Positions 26,140-38,146 are shown, counted from the stretch's first letter. The stretch is DNA of 64,000 nt from Candidatus Nitrosocaldus sp. (GCA_025054855.1 JANWZS010000002.1:1-64000), one strand, 5' to 3'. Notes: generated by a model not told the origin, from the letters alone. Translations and numbers: made by a program.

Positions 26140-27441
26140 TCAAGCCGGTGGTTGCTTTACATATGCGAGGCCTTTGCATATAAGGTAGGAGGCAGCGTAG
26201 AGTGGCAGTTTGACATCCTCATGCGCATAAGGCCCAAATACATTACCCTTGAGTGTGAACCTTGGTGCCCGAACAACATGCACACCAACCTCCCTATCGC
26301 TTATGAAGCATGCATCCTCGAACGGGTCGAATGAGTCTATCTCGGATATCATGAGCGGTACCTTGGCAAGGCTGCTCTTGCTGTTCAGCGTTCCAGGGAG
26401 CCTGAATATCCTGTGCATATCCATGGTTACGTTCGGGTCTACCTTCACTGATAGTGCAAGTATGGCATCCTCAACGCTCTTCATGCTCACCCGCTCTGCT
26501 CCGAGATACCTACCTATCCTCCCCATCCATCCATATCCTTCAGCTGCAAGTATGGATGCTGGAATGTGCAATGGGTCGTTACCACCAACTTCTTCCCCAC
26601 CATCGCTATACCCTGCATCGTTGGTACCCACGCCCCTTCCTCTACCCCCCATGCTCCTCCTCTTACTCCTACCCCTACCCCTACCGTATGCACCCTTCCT
26701 CCCTCTCCTCCCTCTCCTCCCATATCTCCTCGTTAGTGCATCCATCAGACCTCTACCAAGCATGTAGTCCACAATCTCCCGCCTCGCTGCAGAGTCGAGC
26801 GTGGTGTACCTGCCCTTAACATACACATGGAACCCATAGTTGCCAGAGAAGTATACCCTGATACCACCACTACCATCATCACCCTCCCCATCCACACCAA
26901 AGTCATCCACCAGTATCTCAACGAGCTTCTTCACCTCCCTCTTGCCTAAGGAGATACACTCGTTGCATGGCATGATCACATGGTTGACCCTGCTTGAGCC
27001 GCATCTACCGCATGCAGTGGATTGATCATGTAACTCTTCGGAGCACTCTTCACATATGCGTATGTCATGCATGGCTGAGCATCTGGGCTTGAGTTCTTTG
27101 ATATCTATATCGAATATCAGGTCTGCACCCTTCAACCCCTTCTCCTCCATAGGTCTGCTTGGGCTTGTGTAGTATGCTGTTGAGCAGTACATATCCGCTG
27201 GCACGTTCACCATCAGCAGTGCTACCAACTCTCTCCTATCCCTCATGCTCAGGTGCCTTACCATGGTACCATCGAACCTGGAGTAGCCGAACTCCCTCTC
27301 CTGTATGGCATCTGGAGCCTCCACGAGATGGGTGTGGTTGAAGTAATACTCCTTGAATGCCTGCTTCAGTAGGTTTATGCTGTATGCTCTGCTGTTGCTA
27401 CTACTACTGCTACTGCTACTACTACCATCATCTCCACTCAT
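26140..27441 (-). CDS. priS: DNA primase small (catalytic) subunit PriS
   Basis: This archaeal/eukaryotic-type primase catalytic subunit synthesises replication primers with PriL. The catalytic DLIFDID aspartates (about residue 110), a four-Cys zinc motif (CEEC, CGRC), and the YFSGNYGFHVYV motif (about residues 200-211) are present. Two low-complexity parts stand out: an N-terminal Ser run from (AGT/AGC)n codons (27389-27440) and a Gly/Arg-rich insert (26600-26740). It lies 59 nt after priL on the same strand, so they are likely coexpressed. Confidence 0.93.
   Translation of the reverse strand: MSGDDGSSSSSSSSSNSRAYSINLLKQAFKEYYFNHTHLVEAPDAIQEREFGYSRFDGTMVRHLSMRDRRELVALLMVNVPADMYCSTAYYTSPSRPMEEKGLKGADLIFDIDIKELKPRCSAMHDIRICEECSEELHDQSTACGRCGSSRVNHVIMPCNECISLGKREVKKLVEILVDDFGVDGEGDDGSGGIRVYFSGNYGFHVYVKGRYTTLDSAARREIVDYMLGRGLMDALTRRYGRRGRRGRKGAYGRGRGRSKRRSMGGRGRGVGTNDAGYSDGGEEVGGNDPLHIPASILAAEGYGWMGRIGRYLGAERVSMKSVEDAILALSVKVDPNVTMDMHRIFRLPGTLNSKSSLAKVPLMISEIDSFDPFEDACFISDREVGVHVVRAPRFTLKGNVFGPYAHEDVKLPLYAASYLICKGLAYVKQPPA
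27389..27440 (-). repeat. Ser-codon trinucleotide run in priS
   Basis: Tandem AGT/AGC codons (read on the minus strand) encode a poly-serine run right after the priS start. It looks like a microsatellite expansion in an otherwise conserved enzyme. Confidence 0.6.
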
Positions 27442-27499: not shown

Positions 27500-28636
27500 T
27501 CACACCTCCTCATGCTCCTCTCTTCCCCCCTCCCCCTCTCCCTCCTTTCTCTCATAGGCACCATCTGCCCCTACATCCTCTCCCCTACTACCATACCCCC
27601 TCCCCCTACCTGCCCCACCCTTGTACCTCCCAAACTGCAATGGGTTGGTTATGCTATCGCACTCATCGCTCTTGAAGCACAACCCCTGGCTTGCAACCTT
27701 TGAGCATGATGGGCACGAGTACCTTATCCTATTACCCCTCAGCCCCGCAAGGTGCTCCACCTGATACCTCGTAACCCTCTCGTTGTAGTCTGGTGCGTTC
27801 CTGAAGAGCTTGCATACCTCATCCACACCCTTGCCTATCCCAAGCATGTACGTTGCGAGCAGTACCCTTGCCGTATGCGATGGGTTGCTTCCTTGCTCCA
27901 ATGCCTTCAGTATGTTGATTATGCATGGGGGGTAGCCCCTCCTCTCCATAACAGGCTCAATGAACTCCTCCCTCCCAATCTCAAGCATCATGCCCTTCAA
28001 TGCTGTCACACGCCTCTGCAGTGCTTCGGGGAGGTGCTCGTACTCAACCTGTATCCTCTCCAACCTCTCCAGCACAAGGGCGTATATCTCATCCCTTACG
28101 AGCCTGACGGCATCCCTTATGCTTAGGTGCACGTAGCCCTTGTGCACCACCCTGTTGATCAGCCTCCAGTGCCCATCGTGGAAGCGTGTAGAGTACCTCA
28201 GGTAATCCTCGACCCTTAGCATGAGCGTAGAGTCATCACTGCTGTGGATCGCCTCTACACCGAATACGCCCTTGAATATGCTGTTGAGTACCTCCATCGT
28301 ATCCCTGCTATCCTTGTTCACCGCATCCAGGTCATTAACCAGGAACCCCTCCGCCCTCTTGGCCTCGCTCAGGGCGAACCTCCTGTAGAGTGCCCTGCTC
28401 TTGGTAGCCTTGACCATCACACACGCAAGTATGAACGATACTATCTCCTCATCCATACTTGCATGCTCCTCTGGATCATACACTATACCCTTGACTGCAG
28501 CCATCACCCTCCTCGTTGCTCTATCGACTACGCTGCTCATGGGAGGCTCATCGAACTCCTCAAGCCTGTAGTCCAGGAGCCTGAGGTAATCACCAGCATC
28601 CGCAACGAACGGGTACCTTGCGAGCAGCCTATTCAT
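27500..28636 (-). CDS. priL: DNA primase large subunit PriL
   Basis: This is the regulatory, Fe-S-containing partner of PriS. The C-terminal domain keeps four spaced cysteines for the cluster: in YPPCI, DEVCKLF, YSCPSC and GLCFK. The primer-template stretch HTARVLLATYML is also present. The open frame extends to 28729, but ATG 28636 (MNRLLARYPF) gives the expected N terminus and lies about 26 nt from the AT-rich divergent promoter. The last 40 residues are Gly/Arg/Glu-rich low complexity not expected for the family. Confidence 0.92.
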   Translation of the reverse strand: MNRLLARYPFVADAGDYLRLLDYRLEEFDEPPMSSVVDRATRRVMAAVKGIVYDPEEHASMDEEIVSFILACVMVKATKSRALYRRFALSEAKRAEGFLVNDLDAVNKDSRDTMEVLNSIFKGVFGVEAIHSSDDSTLMLRVEDYLRYSTRFHDGHWRLINRVVHKGYVHLSIRDAVRLVRDEIYALVLERLERIQVEYEHLPEALQRRVTALKGMMLEIGREEFIEPVMERRGYPPCIINILKALEQGSNPSHTARVLLATYMLGIGKGVDEVCKLFRNAPDYNERVTRYQVEHLAGLRGNRIRYSCPSCSKVASQGLCFKSDECDSITNPLQFGRYKGGAGRGRGYGSRGEDVGADGAYERKEGEGEGGREEHEEV

Positions 28637-28656
28637 CCTATCATGCAACGACAAAC

Positions 28657-28672
28657 CTAAAATTAAAGTTAA
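28657..28672. promoter_or_regulatory. divergent promoter, priL / endonuclease IV
   Basis: The AT-rich CTAAAATTAAAGTTAAG core sits about 26 nt from ATG 28636 on the minus strand and about 26 nt from ATG 28691 on the plus strand. A single TATA region may serve both genes, with leaderless starts. Confidence 0.45.
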
Positions 28673-28678
28673 GTCTGA

Positions 28679-29557
28679 ATGGAGGGGATCATGGCTCCAC
28701 ACCCCTCGCATGTACGCATAGGCGTGCATGTATCCATCTCAGGCTCGATAGACAGGGCAGTGGATAACGCATTGAGCATAGGGTGCAGTGCATTCCAGAT
28801 ATTCACCAGGAACCCCAGGGGGTGGGCAGCAAAGCCACTCCAGGAGCAGGATGCGAAGAGGTTCAGGACAAAGTTGGACTCATCTGGGATAGGCAGGGAT
28901 GCTGTATTCGCACACATGCCCTACCTCCCGAACCTTGCATCGCCCAAGCAGGAGATATACAGCAGATCTCTAGCGGTGCTGGTTGAGGAGATTAGGAGAT
29001 GCTCTATGCTCGGTATAGGCATGCTTGTGATCCACCTTGGGAGTCACATGGGCTCCAGCAAGGAGCAGGGTATGCAGAGTATAGTGAATGCATGCAATGA
29101 AGCGCTCAAGGAAAGGGATGATGTCACCATACTGCTGGAGAATATGGCAGGGCAGAGGAACAGCATAGGGGCGAGCATAGATGAGCTTGGTAGGTTGTTC
29201 AGGATGCTGGATGGCAGGAGGGTCGGTGTATGCATAGACACATGCCATCTCTTCGCTGCTGGGTACGAGTTGAGGAGCAGGGACTCCCTGGATAAGTTGG
29301 TCTATGAGCTGGATAGGCATATAGGGCTCAAGAACATCAGGCTACTGCACCTGAACGACTCAAAGCATGCTCTAGGCTCCAGTGCCGATAGGCATGAGCA
29401 TATAGGGCTAGGGTACATAGGCGAGGAGGGGTTCAGGAACATACTTGCCATGGAGGAGTTCAGGAGCATCCCATGGATACTCGAGACCCCAGTGGACTCG
29501 AGGAGGGATGATGCTGGCAACATAAGGAAGGTTAGAGAGCTTGCAATGCTTATATGA
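28679..29557 (+). CDS. nfo: endonuclease IV (AP endonuclease)
   Basis: This TIM-barrel, tri-zinc enzyme cuts DNA 5' to abasic sites in base-excision repair. The metal ligand motifs are in order: GVHVSI, HMPYLPN, VIHLGSHMG, LLENMAGQ, CIDTCHLFAAG, HLNDSKHALGSSADRHEHIG and the final ILETP. At 292 residues it is full length. Two starts are plausible: ATG 28679, or ATG 28691, which is better placed for a leaderless mRNA. The latter follows GGAGGGG. It is divergent from the primase operon. Confidence 0.96.
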   Translation: MEGIMAPHPSHVRIGVHVSISGSIDRAVDNALSIGCSAFQIFTRNPRGWAAKPLQEQDAKRFRTKLDSSGIGRDAVFAHMPYLPNLASPKQEIYSRSLAVLVEEIRRCSMLGIGMLVIHLGSHMGSSKEQGMQSIVNACNEALKERDDVTILLENMAGQRNSIGASIDELGRLFRMLDGRRVGVCIDTCHLFAAGYELRSRDSLDKLVYELDRHIGLKNIRLLHLNDSKHALGSSADRHEHIGLGYIGEEGFRNILAMEEFRSIPWILETPVDSRRDDAGNIRKVRELAMLI

Positions 29558-31065: not shown

Positions 31066-34000
31066 CTAGCGTGCAGATACAGTGTACGTGAACTGCCCCT
31101 GCTTGAGGATGATGATCATGAGCCTCTCGCCCTGCTCAAGTACATGCCCATCCACACCCTCAAGCATAATCCCATCATCCTGCACTGTTACACTCCAGTT
31201 CCTGCTCACCTTCACCTTGATGGGTTTACCCTCACTCACGGTTATCCTCAGCGCATCTATAGGATCATCGCCATCATTCTCAACGTAGATTATGAGGAGC
31301 CTCTCCCCCAAGTACCTTACGGATGAGGGTACCAGATTGAATGTTGGTGCCTCGAAGACTATACCCCTCTCAAGCCTGATCGTACCATCTGTTGAGGATG
31401 GAAGGTAGATATACCTTGCACCAGCAATGTTATGCTCATGCCCATTGAACGCAACAGTTATCCTTGCATCCATCTCTGCACTGTTTGGAGCAAGTGCAAT
31501 GAAGATCTCATCGACAGGTATGGCAAGCCTGTACCTCCCATCCGTAACCTCCACGCTACTCCTGTATGATGCTACTGGATTGGAGGCATCGACTATGCTC
31601 ACACTCAACACTGCGCTGAATGGAATCACACCATCCCTATCCATCAGGAAGCCCTCGAGTAGAAGGGTATCCCTCACAGTGCTTGCATCTACTGTTATGA
31701 ATGTGCTCCTTGCAAGTACCGTAACTCCCCCTCCTCCAGCACCCACTCCAGCACCTACACCCGTATTCGTTCCAGCAGGGTTGGTCACTACTGATGTGAC
31801 CATGCTTGCTATGACACCTACACCATCCAACAGGTTCACAAGGTAACCTGTGTAACTCTGGAGCATGTTCAGTATGGAATAGCCATCAACCACATATAGC
31901 ATCAGCTCAATAGTCCTGTTGAGTACATCATCTACACGTATCCCCTCCTCCAGCAACCTCCCAAATCCTATCGACGATGATATACCATCTGATGCAGATG
32001 CATAATCCTCCATCTGAACCCCAGCACCTACACTCCTACCTATAGCATCCATAATCTTCACGGTCTCCATGGCCAACAGTACTCCCACCTCCCTCAGGAA
32101 GGCTGTAACGTTACTGACCGTATCGATTACGAGTATGGATTCTATGGCATCCCTGCTCATACCCTCTATCACCCTCCCTGCACTATCCAGCATCACAACA
32201 GGCTCTGTAAGCATCAACGTGATAGCGTTGATCCTTGCAATACTATCCGTAACCGATACGTTCTCAGTAATCACACTTATGGTTAGGTTGCGTAGATAGT
32301 TGAATACATCACCAGCACCTATAGTATCCTGCAGGGCTCTCTCTAGGTACCTGTATGCACTGAAGAGGTCGGATATGCCTACTGCATCTGCGATATATGA
32401 TGTGTACGATGCACTCATCTGAACCAGTTCAGACGCTGAGATATGCTCGACCACTCCAAGTGTGAGTGCTTTACCTACAGCATCCAGCACACCTGCACCT
32501 AACGCAACTATCCTCCCAACATCTATACCCCTAGACAGTGCATCAGATGCACTCATCACATCACTTATGGATGCTGTCTTTGCAAGTTCCCTAGCAACAC
32601 CATCTGCAGCATTCATTGAGTCGGATAGAAGCCTGGAGATGCTCACCATACCTGCCTGCAGATCCATGGCATGAAGTGGTTCGACTATGGATAGCAAGAG
32701 ATGGGCCATCCTACTTGTCGTATCCCCTACGTTGAGGCTGGTAGTGATCAACCTGTGGAAGGCACTGCTACTGCTCAGGACATCATCCATAGAGATAGTA
32801 TCAATGAGTATTACCACTCTACCAGATATATGCTGCAGTGTATCAACGATAGCAATTGGCTCAACCAGTGCAAAGGCTACATCCTTGATAGAGGATATCG
32901 CATCACTAGGCACTGTTGCATCATCTATGAGCCTTGTGAATGCATAGCCCATCGACTGTGCATCGCTTGTAGTTGATATAGATGAGATCAGTCTAGTGAA
33001 TGCATCAATGCTAGAGAGAGAATCAGATACAGCCTGTGTATCAACTGGTGATCTTGCTATGCTGCGCAGAGTTGCAGCAGCATCAGATGCAAGCAGTGGA
33101 TCAAGTATGCCTTTCATGATTGATGATATCCTTGATTGTTGATCTGTTATGATGTTACTCTCACTTACACCTATGATGTACCCTGCCAGCCTACTGATCA
33201 GATCTGATGCTGCCTGCTGCTCCTCCACCAGCCTAGAGAATGAGTTCAGTGCTTGAGGCAGATCAACTGCTGAGAGTGCCTCGCTCACGCCTGCGATGCG
33301 TGATGTTAACCTTGCAGGTGAGTCAGTGGGTAGTGTTGAATCGATGAACACTCTTGATGCTGTAATTGACCTACCCTGTACATCCACCACCTGCTGCAGC
33401 TCTGCAAGTGCCCTTGAGGATGCCAGTGATCTTGTATGCGATGCCAGTACGCTTAGTGGCTCATTTGCCATGCGTGATGATGCTACGCCTCTCTTGAGCT
33501 GATCATGCTCGCTTAACTTGAGCTGCTCCTTGAGGTCTCTAGTGAAGTTGGTTGGGGCTAGAGTATACTCTATCTTTGGGGCGTTTGCGACGCTATGATT
33601 CCTCGTATAGAACTCCCATCTATCCCTTCTAGTATCACCATCTGTACCATTTGCAGTCCTTACCATGTATGTTGTGAAACTCCTCAGGTTGTTTATATCA
33701 TCCTGCATGGCATTCTTTACGGATACGCTTACTGGATTGGAAGGATCAACACTCGCTGGTATCAATACACCAGGATCATTGCCTATTGATGGTGAATTAA
33801 AATCACTTACATCAAGTGTGCCATAATCATTGATGTGTATGACGAGCGTATTGCCCAATCCTGGATTGTTGAATGGTGGAGATGGATCATGAGTATTATT
33901 TACTATTGATCGCTCTATGGTCAACTTCAGTACTGCCGATGCCAGACTCTTCCCATGCAGTGATGATATGGGGAATTTGATGAACGATCTGTACTCAGTC

Positions 34001-34341
34001 AGTATGATATCCCCATCGGGTAGGACCGAACCTATTCTAGGATCATCACCTACACGCATGACCATTTCAGTTGCATCAGCACCAGTTCCAGTGAATGGAC
34101 CACCGTTGACACTTTGACCAGTAACAAAACCATCGCTGGCATCTGATGGTATAGTACTTGCTGCTTCAGCAACCCCCATCTGCAACGGGTATAATACGTA
34201 AACCCACTCATGCCCATTCCAGTACCTATCCGTATACTCATCGACCCTGTAGAGCGCACTCCTCCTCTCCAGTGAAGGCACTGCAAGTACATAAGCACAA
34301 AAAATTATGATGAGCAGTAGAGGTGCTATGCGCATAGCCAT
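31066..34341 (-). CDS. giant cell-surface protein with DNRLRE-like domain and 20-residue repeats
   Basis: This 1091-residue protein begins with a signal/anchor (residues 1-22). Residues about 60-260 resemble the DNRLRE/CBM96-type beta-sandwich (RSFIKFPISSLHG...SAVLKLTIERS). From residue 320 to about 760 run some 22 tandem repeats, most exactly 20 residues long, each opening with Asp. Typical units are DSLSSIDAFTRLISSISTTS and DTTSRMAHLLLSIVEPLHAM. The C-terminal 250 residues are beta-rich. The whole looks like an elongated surface stalk or sheath with terminal binding domains. It is cotranscribed with the upstream 187-residue protein. It is not recognisable as a characterised S-layer protein; adhesion is a guess. 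Confidence 0.85.
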   Translation of the reverse strand: MAMRIAPLLLIIIFCAYVLAVPSLERRSALYRVDEYTDRYWNGHEWVYVLYPLQMGVAEAASTIPSDASDGFVTGQSVNGGPFTGTGADATEMVMRVGDDPRIGSVLPDGDIILTEYRSFIKFPISSLHGKSLASAVLKLTIERSIVNNTHDPSPPFNNPGLGNTLVIHINDYGTLDVSDFNSPSIGNDPGVLIPASVDPSNPVSVSVKNAMQDDINNLRSFTTYMVRTANGTDGDTRRDRWEFYTRNHSVANAPKIEYTLAPTNFTRDLKEQLKLSEHDQLKRGVASSRMANEPLSVLASHTRSLASSRALAELQQVVDVQGRSITASRVFIDSTLPTDSPARLTSRIAGVSEALSAVDLPQALNSFSRLVEEQQAASDLISRLAGYIIGVSESNIITDQQSRISSIMKGILDPLLASDAAATLRSIARSPVDTQAVSDSLSSIDAFTRLISSISTTSDAQSMGYAFTRLIDDATVPSDAISSIKDVAFALVEPIAIVDTLQHISGRVVILIDTISMDDVLSSSSAFHRLITTSLNVGDTTSRMAHLLLSIVEPLHAMDLQAGMVSISRLLSDSMNAADGVARELAKTASISDVMSASDALSRGIDVGRIVALGAGVLDAVGKALTLGVVEHISASELVQMSASYTSYIADAVGISDLFSAYRYLERALQDTIGAGDVFNYLRNLTISVITENVSVTDSIARINAITLMLTEPVVMLDSAGRVIEGMSRDAIESILVIDTVSNVTAFLREVGVLLAMETVKIMDAIGRSVGAGVQMEDYASASDGISSSIGFGRLLEEGIRVDDVLNRTIELMLYVVDGYSILNMLQSYTGYLVNLLDGVGVIASMVTSVVTNPAGTNTGVGAGVGAGGGGVTVLARSTFITVDASTVRDTLLLEGFLMDRDGVIPFSAVLSVSIVDASNPVASYRSSVEVTDGRYRLAIPVDEIFIALAPNSAEMDARITVAFNGHEHNIAGARYIYLPSSTDGTIRLERGIVFEAPTFNLVPSSVRYLGERLLIIYVENDGDDPIDALRITVSEGKPIKVKVSRNWSVTVQDDGIMLEGVDGHVLEQGERLMIIILKQGQFTYTVSAR
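32060..33384 (-). repeat. 60-bp (20-residue) tandem repeat array
   Basis: About 22 diverged units encode the D-x2-S-x14-18 repeats of the surface protein. Period is 20 residues in nearly all units, with two of 21 and one of 18. DNA identity between units is low, so the period is kept by selection on the protein rather than by recent duplication. Confidence 0.8.
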
Positions 34342-34359
34342 CTCCTTGGGCTTGGATTG

Positions 34360-34923
34360 CTATGTTATGTTGATCTGCCAGTTTATGGTTATAGAGTCAC
34401 CAGCCTGCAGGGTTGGGGGGTTACTTATCAGTGCTACCGCAACCAGTGTACCCCCGCTAGCCTGATCGAATAGACCAGCCTTGTTTATTGTGAATGTAGG
34501 GTTTGCACCACTTGCCATGGTGAACGTCCTGCTTATTGTGATCTGCCCAGTACCCCCAAGTGTAGCAGTGCCCTGAGCCCTGGCAAGCCCCTGCCCAGTT
34601 ATCTCCCCTGCCAGTGACGTATCCCCAGCAGCGGGTGCAGTGGAGTCTGTGCTCAACGCTATGTACTGCGCAGTGCTATTACTGGCGGTGCCGAATGCCT
34701 GCTGCCTTATAAAGTTCCTACCAGCATCGGTTATAAGGTTGTGCGTCTCATACCTGTACACTATCTGCCCATCCCTCTCAACGATCACAAGCACCCTATC
34801 ATGGAATACTGCACTCTCATGGCTGCTCTTGCCTATGAGCATACTGGTGCTGGAGGCCATGTACCAGAGGAAAGTTCCTGCTAAGAGGATACTTATCCCC
34901 GTCAGTATCCATATCTTGACCAT
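34360..34923 (-). CDS. membrane-anchored protein resembling phage virion/tail-fibre proteins
   Basis: This 187-residue protein has one N-terminal membrane segment (about residues 5-24), then a beta-rich ectodomain. The ectodomain reads HNLITDAGRNFIRQQAFG, then YIALSTDSTAPAAGDTSLAGE, then SRTFTMASGANPTFTINKAGLF, and ends SITINWQINIT. This order is typical of a class of phage tail or virion proteins, here attached to a membrane anchor. No other phage genes are near. It lies 18 nt upstream of the giant repeat protein on the same strand and probably forms a surface complex with it. Confidence 0.78.
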   Translation of the reverse strand: MVKIWILTGISILLAGTFLWYMASSTSMLIGKSSHESAVFHDRVLVIVERDGQIVYRYETHNLITDAGRNFIRQQAFGTASNSTAQYIALSTDSTAPAAGDTSLAGEITGQGLARAQGTATLGGTGQITISRTFTMASGANPTFTINKAGLFDQASGGTLVAVALISNPPTLQAGDSITINWQINIT

Positions 34924-34944
34924 AACCTGAATAACTTATGGATA

Positions 34945-34962
34945 TACAAAAGTTTTATGGTC
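34945..34962. promoter_or_regulatory. divergent promoter, surface-protein operon / hypothetical secreted protein
   Basis: ACAAAAGTTTTATGG is TATA-like in both directions, about 28-32 nt from the minus ATG at 34923 and about 35-40 nt from the plus ATG at 34991. The layout suggests coordinated expression of the two surface transcription units. Confidence 0.35.
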
Positions 34963-34990: not shown

Positions 34991-35947
34991 ATGAGTTATA
35001 TGAGAAGCCGAGTAAGAGTAGGTATGAAGAGGGCTCTACTGCTGACCTTGCCATTGGTGGCATGGCTCACCATACTCTATACCAACGCCCTGATAACGCT
35101 CAGCATAGATACCTATGCTAGCACTGTGGATGATGACAGTGGTGTCTATGAAGATGGCGAGCAATCCAGTTCCAGCATCATACCTGAATCAAGCAGGTGG
35201 GTCACGGACGGCTATGATGATGATGGTAGCGATCGATGGAGGTTCAAGGTCTGGAAGTGGCGTGAGTTCCTTGCATGTGAGTCCATAGCGCTGGATATGC
35301 ATGGTGGTGATGCATACAACTACGTTAGGTACAGGGGCTCGAGCGTAGAGATGAGCCTGCTAACCCTGCCAGAGATGGACTATGTGCATGTCGCTGGTAT
35401 TAGCGTTGGCGATGTATGGACCAACGGCACGGATGTGTACCAGCCTGAGCCACTCAGCGTAGCAGCGCTAGAGCACCTCACACTCAGCATCAAGGTGCAC
35501 GAGTTCAAGGGAGCACCACTCTCCCCAGTAGTATTCCCATCCTGGTATGCATTACTTACCGATCTCTGGTTCAGGGTCAAGAATGTCACTATAGAGGATG
35601 GTGATGGTGTGGAGCACTACGAGGAGAAGGTACTTGGCATAGATGTCTACCACCGCACCATGGGTGGAGGACTCAACATAGTAATGGGGCTGGGGGATGA
35701 CTACTCTAGGATAGAGCCGTGCAACAAGAACTTCATCTACAGCATAAACCTCTCATCCTATGATGGGATACACATAGATGTGCTTGAGTTGCTGAGCAGG
35801 GCTCAGGAGGAGGCCAGTAAGAAGGGATGGCACTTCAGCATAGAGGATGTTGAACTGGTCATGGTCGAGACTGTGCTGGAGAGTTACTGGTCGTACGCAT
35901 ACGCAAGGATAGAACCCCCTAGCATAATCTACAAGGCTGGAGGCTGA
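34991..35947 (+). CDS. secreted or membrane-anchored protein of unknown function
   Basis: This 318-residue protein has an N-terminal hydrophobic segment (about residues 14-36) and then a wholly extracytoplasmic region. That region is rich in aromatic residues and strands (WRFKVWKWREFLACESIALDMHGG; WYALLTDLWFRV; NIVMGLGDD; HIDVLELLSRAQ). The strand-rich pattern with DLWFRV and a late helix recalls concanavalin-like glucanase folds such as GH12, but no catalytic pair can be assigned with confidence. It is divergent from the giant repeat-protein operon, so a surface role is likely. I do not recognise the family. Confidence 0.75.
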   Translation: MSYMRSRVRVGMKRALLLTLPLVAWLTILYTNALITLSIDTYASTVDDDSGVYEDGEQSSSSIIPESSRWVTDGYDDDGSDRWRFKVWKWREFLACESIALDMHGGDAYNYVRYRGSSVEMSLLTLPEMDYVHVAGISVGDVWTNGTDVYQPEPLSVAALEHLTLSIKVHEFKGAPLSPVVFPSWYALLTDLWFRVKNVTIEDGDGVEHYEEKVLGIDVYHRTMGGGLNIVMGLGDDYSRIEPCNKNFIYSINLSSYDGIHIDVLELLSRAQEEASKKGWHFSIEDVELVMVETVLESYWSYAYARIEPPSIIYKAGG

Positions 35948-36053: not shown

Positions 36054-37250
36054 ATGGTAGAGGGGGAGGGGGAGAGGGGTCATTACAGGTACGGAAGTCG
36101 TGAGAGGAGTGGTGTAGTCCTCTCCATCATAGTACCTACATACAACGAGTCAGAGAATATACCACACCTCCTGCGATCTATAAGGGATGGTCTGGAGGCA
36201 AAGCTGCAGCGCATAGATTCTAGTGCTGAGGTCATAATAGTTGATGATGGTAGCCCAGATGGTACTGCCGAGGTTGCAGAGAGGCACTCCAACATGGCAG
36301 AGAGGCTCCGCATCAGGGTACTGCGCAGGCACAGTAGGAGGGATCTGCTCTCTGCTGTGCTCGATGGGCTGAATACCGCTGAGGGCAGCAACATAGTTGT
36401 TATGGATGCGGATCTCTCGCACCCCCCATCGCTGATCCCTACTATGCTCGATGAGCTCATGCATGATAGGTGTGATCTTGTTATAGCATCAAGGTACGTT
36501 GATGGTGGTTCTGTGGCAGAGTGGAGTATCAGGCGCAAGGCGTTGAGCATCTCAGCCAACATGCTGGCAAGGACCATCCTCAACCTGAAGGTGAAGGATG
36601 CGGTATCTGGCTTCTTTGCGTGCAGGAGATGGGTACTCGAGGGTGTGAACTTCACCACGTCAGGGTACAAGATACTGCTCGAGTTGCTGGTGAAGGCTGA
36701 TAACATAAGGGTCAAGGAGATACCATACACGTTCGTGAACAGGAGCCATGGGAAGAGCAAGTTCAGTGCAAGGGTTGCCATAGATTACATGAGGGCAGTC
36801 TGGATGCTCTACAGGTACGGTAGGAAGAGGAGGGTTGAGAGGAGAGGATCTGTACTCTTCCTCTCGAGGGCAGCAAGGTTCTACACGGTAGGGGCAAGCG
36901 GGCTGGCAGTGAACTATGGTGTAGCCTCTATAGCAAACCTGCTGCTCTCAAACATGCATATCGCAACCCTTGCAGGCATACTCTGCTCCATCACATCCAA
37001 CTTCATCCTGAACAAGCTCTGGACGTTCGAGGATACAGACCTTGCCATTCTGCATGTGCTCAGGCAGTATGCGTACTATGTCGGTCTGAGTTCTGTTGGT
37101 GGAGTACTGCAGTTCACCCTCACCCATCTGTTAAGCAGCATCTACGGGATGCAGTACAACATCGCTCTGATCCTAGCGATAGGGGTAGCATCTATGTGGA
37201 ACTTCCTATCCAACAAGAAGTGGACATTCAGGGAGAAGGTCTGGGGCTAG
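36054..37250 (+). CDS. dolichol-phosphate-mannose-synthase-like glycosyltransferase with GtrA domain
   Basis: The N-terminal GT2 domain (about residues 20-255) has SIIVPTYNESENIP, VDDGSPDGT and the metal/nucleotide motif MDADLSHPP, typical of polyprenol-phosphate mannose/glucose synthases. The C-terminal part (about 275-395) is a four-helix GtrA membrane domain (FYTVGASGLAVNYGV, FILNKLWTFED, FLSNKKWTF). The enzyme would make lipid-linked sugar at the cytoplasmic membrane for protein or surface glycosylation. It starts after GGAGGG. A TATA-like GATACTTAAAG lies about 40 nt upstream. It is next to the surface-protein locus, consistent with glycosylating it. Confidence 0.92.
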   Translation: MVEGEGERGHYRYGSRERSGVVLSIIVPTYNESENIPHLLRSIRDGLEAKLQRIDSSAEVIIVDDGSPDGTAEVAERHSNMAERLRIRVLRRHSRRDLLSAVLDGLNTAEGSNIVVMDADLSHPPSLIPTMLDELMHDRCDLVIASRYVDGGSVAEWSIRRKALSISANMLARTILNLKVKDAVSGFFACRRWVLEGVNFTTSGYKILLELLVKADNIRVKEIPYTFVNRSHGKSKFSARVAIDYMRAVWMLYRYGRKRRVERRGSVLFLSRAARFYTVGASGLAVNYGVASIANLLLSNMHIATLAGILCSITSNFILNKLWTFEDTDLAILHVLRQYAYYVGLSSVGGVLQFTLTHLLSSIYGMQYNIALILAIGVASMWNFLSNKKWTFREKVWG

Positions 37251-37333
37251 CATATCCAGCATCTGCATGGACTTTGACTAAAGTACCATTGGCAGCAGAT
37301 AGTCAGTTGAACATCCAATTTAAATCCCATCGC

Positions 37334-38146
37334 ATGCGAATCACTCCGTTGGATACCCTAGAGTCGCTCAACAGGGTCATAGTCTCATGCACCAAGTGTG
37401 AGAGGCTTGTAAGGTACAGGGAGCAGGTAGCCATGAGGAAGGTGAGGAGGTTCAGGGACTGCGAGTACTGGGCAAGGCCAGTACCAGGGTTTGGGGATGT
37501 GAATGCCAGACTGCTCATAATAGGCTTGGCACCTGCGGCACATGGTGCAAACAGGACTGGGAGGATGTTCACTGGAGACTCTTCTGGCTCATGGTTGATG
37601 AGGGCACTCCATGAGACTGGGTTTGCCAACAAGCCAGCGAGTATAAGCAGGGATGATGGGCTCACATTACGAGATGCGTACATAACTGCAGTGCTGAGAT
37701 GTGCACCCCCAGATAACAGACCTACCAGGGAGGAGATAGGTAACTGCGTGCAGTACCTTATCAATGAGGTGCGCCTGCTCAGGAGGGTTAGGATAGTGCT
37801 TACCCTAGGGTCCATAGCATTCAATGCTTACTGCAGGATGAGTGGTGTGACAGGTCTGGAGTTTAGGCATGGTGCATGCTATGAGGTATGGGATGATGAC
37901 TACTATGGGGATGATGATTATGATAAGAATGGCGATAAGGATGGCAGTAGTAATAGTAGTAGTAGGAGTAGTAATAGTAGTAGGAGGAGTAGGAGGAGTA
38001 GGAGGAGGGGTAGGATGATCACACTAATCGCATCATACCATCCGAGCAGGCAGAATACGCAGACTGGTAGGCTGAGTTGGGGTATGTGGATCGATGTATT
38101 CAGGAGGATAAGGCTCATGCTAGATGGGTCTGAACTCAAGCCCTAA
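37334..38146 (+). CDS. uracil-DNA glycosylase, family 5 (UDGb)
   Basis: This thermophile-type DNA glycosylase removes uracil, and often other deaminated bases. Four cluster cysteines are visible (CTKC near the start, CEYW, and a later Cys). The family-5 motif GLAPAAHGANRTGRMFTGD, with its GLAPA-type active site, is followed by the C-terminal SYHPSRQNTQTGRL. A 45-residue Asp/Tyr, Ser and Arg low-complexity insert (about 37890-38015, from AGT/AGG codon repeats) splits the end of the fold. The open frame runs back into the glycosyltransferase gene. ATG 37334 gives the family-like start MRITPLDTLESL. Confidence 0.9.
   Translation: MRITPLDTLESLNRVIVSCTKCERLVRYREQVAMRKVRRFRDCEYWARPVPGFGDVNARLLIIGLAPAAHGANRTGRMFTGDSSGSWLMRALHETGFANKPASISRDDGLTLRDAYITAVLRCAPPDNRPTREEIGNCVQYLINEVRLLRRVRIVLTLGSIAFNAYCRMSGVTGLEFRHGACYEVWDDDYYGDDDYDKNGDKDGSSNSSSRSSNSSRRSRRSRRRGRMITLIASYHPSRQNTQTGRLSWGMWIDVFRRIRLMLDGSELKP
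37943..38015 (+). repeat. AGT/AGG codon-repeat tract in the UDG gene
   Basis: Tandem AGT, AAT and AGG triplets encode Ser/Asn then Arg runs inside the glycosylase reading frame. The tract is a microsatellite-like expansion in a conserved enzyme. Confidence 0.65.

Follow-up and report, generated by a model that had tools for sequence, protein, structure and literature searches.

We propose, with moderate confidence, that two adjoining minus-strand genes in a 64,000-nucleotide stretch of Candidatus Nitrosocaldus DNA (hereafter the window) constitute a single two-gene surface module, in which a membrane-held base (P2, 187 aa) would be combined with an exported repeat stalk (P1, 1091 aa), using parts common to tailed-phage virions. 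The genome (1.56 Mb in 42 contigs) is that of an ammonia-oxidising, thermophilic archaeon of hot springs, with Candidatus Nitrosocaldus schleperae and N. tengchongensis as congeners. P2 is the first gene of the pair (positions 34360 to 34923), and P1 begins 18 bp downstream of it (31066 to 34341); the coordinates agree with a preliminary description of the locus. About 20 to 27 nt upstream of the P2 start codon, on the same strand, lies a putative archaeal TATA-like box, TTTTGTATATCC (34940 to 34951), picked out by eye.

On its sequence and predicted structure, P2 is a Gp80-family virion domain held by a membrane anchor. It matches the Gp80 profile PF23140 over positions 20 to 121 of 128 with 39.6 bits (E-value 8e-10; gathering cutoff 27), and it also matches phrog_5417 (at 1e-17) along with head and tail PHROGs, phrog_240 and phrog_4176 being the other profiles by which the gene was assigned. 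The predicted membrane helix, residues 6 to 23 (34855 to 34908), appears in the AF2 model as a helix of low pLDDT, and the hydropathy there peaks at 1.9 over 19 residues. It is followed by a predicted virion-type beta domain at residues 40 to 186 (34366 to 34806), modelled with a pLDDT of mostly 87 to 98. When this model was searched with Foldseek, the best PDB match was the baseplate hub of HFTV1 (9h4p; E-value 7e-7, probability 1.00), and the second was GP4 fiber I (8jou; E-value 1.8e-3, probability 1.00), with a TM-score of 0.45/0.58 (the latter normalized to the target) and an rmsd of 3.9. Further, the model (ma2f0eb688557) has 71 matches at an E-value of at most 0.001 among the BFVD viral models, from tailed phages, haloarchaeal tailed viruses and the filamentous lipothrixviruses (Betalipothrixvirus, SIFV). 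Going by these models, the attachment-type domain of P2 spans tailed and filamentous archaeal viruses. The virion-like membrane partner surmised in the preliminary description is hence borne out by the sequence of P2 and by its predicted fold.

P1 opens with a predicted signal peptide or N-terminal membrane helix at residues 4 to 22 (34276 to 34332; hydropathy 2.47; AF2 helix at residues 2 to 20 with a pLDDT of 77 to 83), and no C-terminal membrane helix is found in it. Residues 116 to 258 (33568 to 33996) resemble the DNRLRE family NF033679 with an E-value of 5.7e-5 and 23.3 bits, which does not reach the curated cutoff of 34; the DNRLRE-like domain noted earlier is thus retained as a sub-cutoff match. 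The beta-rich C terminus noted there was recovered as predicted AF2 strands in residues 880 to 1091 (31069 to 31704), with a pLDDT of about 37 to 90, mostly 70 to 90. Between these lies the repeat region, residues 286 to 810 (31912 to 33486). BLOSUM autocorrelation over residues 256 to 870, scored against 200 shuffles, peaks at lags of 20 (z of 10.4), 40 (7.5) and 60 (7.8), which upholds the 20-residue period; the earlier count of about 22 units, nearly all of exactly 20 residues, has to be lowered to 19 in a scan with a matrix from another species, with 12 of the 18 intervals being exactly 20 and the others being 40 (three), 41, 18 and 86 (one each). The Asp with which the units were said to begin is indeed conserved, but an Arg, a Glu/Asp and another Arg are conserved along with it; relatives whose array is better preserved have the unit aTLTRsLTEtqTLSDsvSRl, in which all four positions are kept. 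Tandem Repeats Finder detects no array in the DNA of the region, bar one 2-copy 24-mer, so the period resides in the protein.

A profile of the repeat built from another species (rep60) matches P1 with an E-value of 1.5e-25, and none of 1080 shuffled repeat proteins was matched. By its sequence, then, P1 belongs to an R/E/D 20-residue repeat family that phages have as well. The shape of the array is less readily predicted: AF2, given a 14-row alignment of P1, returned a mean pLDDT of 42, with the repeat blocks mostly at 25 to 45 and no confident repeat fold. In most groups of the archaeal and phage repeats the hydrophobic moment favors a helical pattern, at 105 to 110 degrees, over strands, and it gives no support to reading the S/T-alternating repeat as beta. 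Few positions of the units accept proline, chiefly the one just after the Glu/Asp in archaeal units. The P1 orthologue of N. schleperae (locus L062, 10607 to 13576) has eight identical 20-residue units, LLSTPRSVLEPVLASDTLSR, in succession, from which we infer that the array has expanded recently. In Nitrosopumilaceae genomes of less than 2 Mb, repeat ORFs reach 5212 aa (G143:C1, about 1714000 to 1720000) and 4736 aa (G173:C1, about 64500 to 67100).

The two genes are a unit beyond the window genome. Among the first 61 relatives searched, P2 was matched in 14 genomes and P1 in 14, with 12 in common (Fisher p of 4e-9, kinship ignored); the pair thus co-occurs in related genomes and lies close together in them, a point on which the preliminary description had made the case depend. 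The anchored P2 directly adjoins a repeat protein with a signal peptide in four other Nitrosocaldus genomes (G001, G003, G004 and G005), in families f2, f3, f7, f12 and f14, in one f9 genome and on one Pacearchaeota contig. Counted by family-level group, adjacency extends to at least seven among the ammonia-oxidising archaea and their kin. When 40 genomes, phylogenetically non-independent, were scanned throughout for the repeats, these were present in 23 of 31 genomes with P2 and in 0 of 9 without it, the latter being an arbitrary pick (Fisher p of 9e-5). Each of the 11 single-contig genomes has a repeat gene no more than 22 kb from P2, one of them (G197) having a second far off.

The same distribution bears on a reading in which P1 and P2 are unrelated, ordinary surface proteins linked only through a slow-rearranging surface-gene neighborhood by glyS and cdvB, with the Gp80-type domain being of a generic beta kind that cells and viruses both use. 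Such a neighborhood would account for the conservation of the whole region, for the eight P2-bearing genomes, all of f9, in which the repeat scan gave no match, and for the majority of Nitrosopumilaceae loci, where P2 adjoins another gene and is separated by kilobases from the repeat gene, which is sometimes on the opposite strand. We nevertheless deem it unlikely, if deserving of serious consideration, in that the pairs of f2, f3, f7, f12 and f14 lie at unrelated loci with none of the window's neighbor genes, the two families also adjoin in phages (see below), and the repeats are confined to P2-bearing genomes in the 40-genome scan.

In the window, the pair is flanked by genes for endonuclease IV (endoIV), glycyl-tRNA synthetase (glyS), a divergent 318-aa protein and a DPM-synthase-like (DPMS-like) glycosyltransferase, and by those for uracil-DNA glycosylase (UDG), a glutamate-racemase-like protein (murI) and a CdvB-like protein (cdvB); these names were assigned from the window translations, and the genes then served as synteny markers. 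At least two of endoIV, glyS, the DPMS-like gene, UDG, murI and cdvB are retained at 32 of the 35 anchored P2 loci of Nitrosopumilaceae, and the P2 locus is accordingly syntenic between Nitrosocaldus and that family. Genome G028 presents a mirror of the window, with the order endoIV, glyS, repeat protein, P2, and then cdvB and murI. The 318-aa gene (34991 to 35947, plus strand) has the intergenic region in common with P2, is kept beside the pair in Nitrosocaldus and had no match in a Pfam search. In Nitrosopumilaceae a different, secreted-type gene of 240 to 280 aa with an FDGKWTxxxEW motif stands divergently beside P2 (27 found); it was considered as an ortholog of the 318-aa gene and set aside, there being no detectable homology (hhalign probability 0.4). 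Several replication and repair proteins of the window carry long low-complexity stretches, RG-rich or S/R/D-rich, within them or at their ends, namely, the small (26140 to 27441) and large (27500 to 28729) primase subunits and the uracil-DNA glycosylase (37196 to 38146).

No virus genes were recognized around the pair, the flanks being housekeeping or glycan genes in an order kept across families, and P2 is therefore not placed among virus genes as a virion protein would be. A virion-type gene in a chromosome could, in principle, mark a decaying provirus or tailocin remnant, as could the copies in the congener G002 (G002:C12), where several stops break both genes of the pair and the flanking genes are kept. 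With these flanks and their synteny across families, and with the ORFs intact in five Nitrosocaldus genomes (contig ends aside), we regard that origin as ruled out for practical purposes. The broken copies in G002, together with the absence of both genes from the sister genus (G006), instead indicate that the module is dispensable.

The pairing recurs in phages. A repeat protein of the same family is encoded within 4 kb and on the same strand at 15 of 43 non-redundant IMG/VR viral P2 loci, as against 0 of 28 random viral stretches with either P2 or the repeat (a small control, 250 kb in total, taken from structural and other regions alike). A control for structural regions based on BcepGomr gp12, a likely major head protein, was abandoned, as it yielded only four viral-contig loci. 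At six phage loci with both families, PHROGs identify genes for terminase, portal, protease, major head, connector, tail or head-decoration proteins. At one of these (L078), a head maturation protease, a connector, a collagen-like fiber gene, the P2 homologue and the repeat protein are followed by head closure, neck, major tail and tape measure genes, and the five others (L085, L097, L121, L140 and L150) likewise include terminase, portal, major head, tail or decoration genes. At L140, where the contig also encodes portal and major head proteins, a signal-peptided repeat protein lies 76 bp from the P2 homologue. The phage repeat partners match phrog_12240; P1 itself has no match to this profile, and its link to the phage repeats is the rep60 profile. 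The N-terminal domains of archaeal P1 have no detectable similarity to their counterparts in the phage repeat proteins, so that a common N-terminal domain was discarded, and a tblastn search of annotated phages with a phage repeat protein returned no match, possibly on account of low-complexity filtering. The domesticated phage fiber suggested in the preliminary description gains support from this, in that the repeat partner, too, has relatives beside P2-type genes in tailed-phage structural modules.

In an unrooted tree of 100 P2 sequences, the window P2 falls inside a 35-member clade dominated by viral sequences, which number 25 (support 99/95). The Nitrosopumilaceae forms fall outside this clade, yet they occupy the same locus. 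An AU test rejects one clade of the Nitrosocaldus and Nitrosopumilaceae forms (p of 5e-6), a test that fast evolution in the latter could mislead, and a single origin for nearly all anchored archaeal forms is likewise rejected (p of 5e-12). The anchored forms make up several groups, some of them nested in viral-rich clades (99/95). The rejection of one origin for the membrane-anchored forms implies that exchange between viruses and cells happened more than once. Synteny without monophyly would be explained by in-place replacement or by the loss of ancient paralogues. Two anchored P2 copies in divergent orientation are present in each of G056 and L067; the two genes lie side by side in the Nitrososphaeraceae loci L048 and L067, and the L048 pair splits across the tree.

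We tentatively infer that the transfer ran from virus to cell. The reverse, with phages having obtained the domain and the repeat family from cellular surface proteins, strikes us as quite unlikely: it could invoke the missing root and the signal-peptide- or membrane-like N termini of the P2 homologues on six viral contigs (L076, L081, L095, L108, L140 and L147), but it is at odds with the scattering of the anchored forms, in part within viral-rich clades, and with the presence of the domain across tailed phages, the tailed viruses of haloarchaea and the filamentous viruses of archaea. As a tentative and broader scenario, possible rather than probable, ammonia-oxidising archaea may have repeatedly taken a two-gene fiber-attachment module from tailed viruses, or traded it with them, and made of it a membrane-anchored appendage, kept at one locus across families and having repeat partners whose lengths run from some 850 residues to more than 5000.

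Taking these findings together, we think that the pair forms a cell-surface appendage or adhesin made from parts that phage virions also use, which works like a virion attachment module without being one; the unrecognized surface appendage of the preliminary description is kept in this sense, as a proposal. The N-terminal helix of P2 would hold it in the membrane, and P2 would expose on the outside a beta domain like those found in tailed viruses at the junction of fibers with the tail or neck. P1 would be exported, and its repeats would act as a stalk of variable length, bearing the carbohydrate-binding-like N-terminal and beta-rich C-terminal domains through or beyond the S-layer. P2 might serve as the base or docking partner of P1, a role that its relatives in virions probably fill for the repeat proteins next to them. 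The parts of such a module would have been exchanged repeatedly between viruses and the chromosomes of archaea, and the locus would then have become a stable chromosomal fixture in ammonia-oxidising archaea. The display of a virion attachment-type domain by a cell, along with a phylogeny implying repeated exchange with viruses, might also suggest an antiviral module, in which the domain and stalk mask or compete for receptors and thereby block related tailed viruses. This we judge very unlikely, as the identified neighbors are housekeeping or glycan genes, with no defence gene seen among them, and a structural role would account just as well for the long vertical retention at one locus.

The reuse of phage tails by cells is known chiefly in the form of killing or injection devices. 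Ammonia-oxidising archaea are key organisms of the nitrogen cycle, and little is known of their surface beyond the S-layer. While cells reusing virus parts are already known as a kind, what is new here is that single virion attachment parts, rather than whole tails, appear to be reused in the envelope of these archaea. The pair offers a gene candidate for cell attachment or aggregation and for recognition by viruses, and it draws attention to a repeat family without annotation, phrog_12240, in the structural modules of phages. We found no description of the P2-P1 pair in a search of the open-licence literature.

Several parallels are suggested by known systems. Like giant adhesins with Ig-like or RTX stalks, P1 would combine an export signal, a binding-like end domain and a long, variable stalk; the likeness is one of architecture only, since its repeat unit, of R/E/D type and 20 residues long, is neither an Ig-like nor an RTX domain, and the protein is paired with one of virion type. 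The DNRLRE-domain surface proteins (NF033679) resemble P1 weakly, at its N terminus and below the cutoff, and that family does not include the 20-residue repeats. On the phage side, two PHROGs without assigned function connect to the pair, phrog_5417 through P2 and phrog_12240 through the phage repeat partners. The podophage GP4 fiber I (PF23140; PDB 8jou) has the same domain as P2 by both HMM and fold, whereas P2 has a predicted membrane helix and is encoded by a cell, in a chromosomal setting without virion genes. The closest fold in the PDB, gp44 of HFTV1 (9h4p), is the baseplate hub of an archaeal tailed virus that anchors three trimeric tail fibers and has been proposed to bind host surface glycans (PMC12494034); there, the matching region is part of a 953-aa trimeric hub, whereas P2 is a small, single-domain protein with a predicted anchor in the cell.
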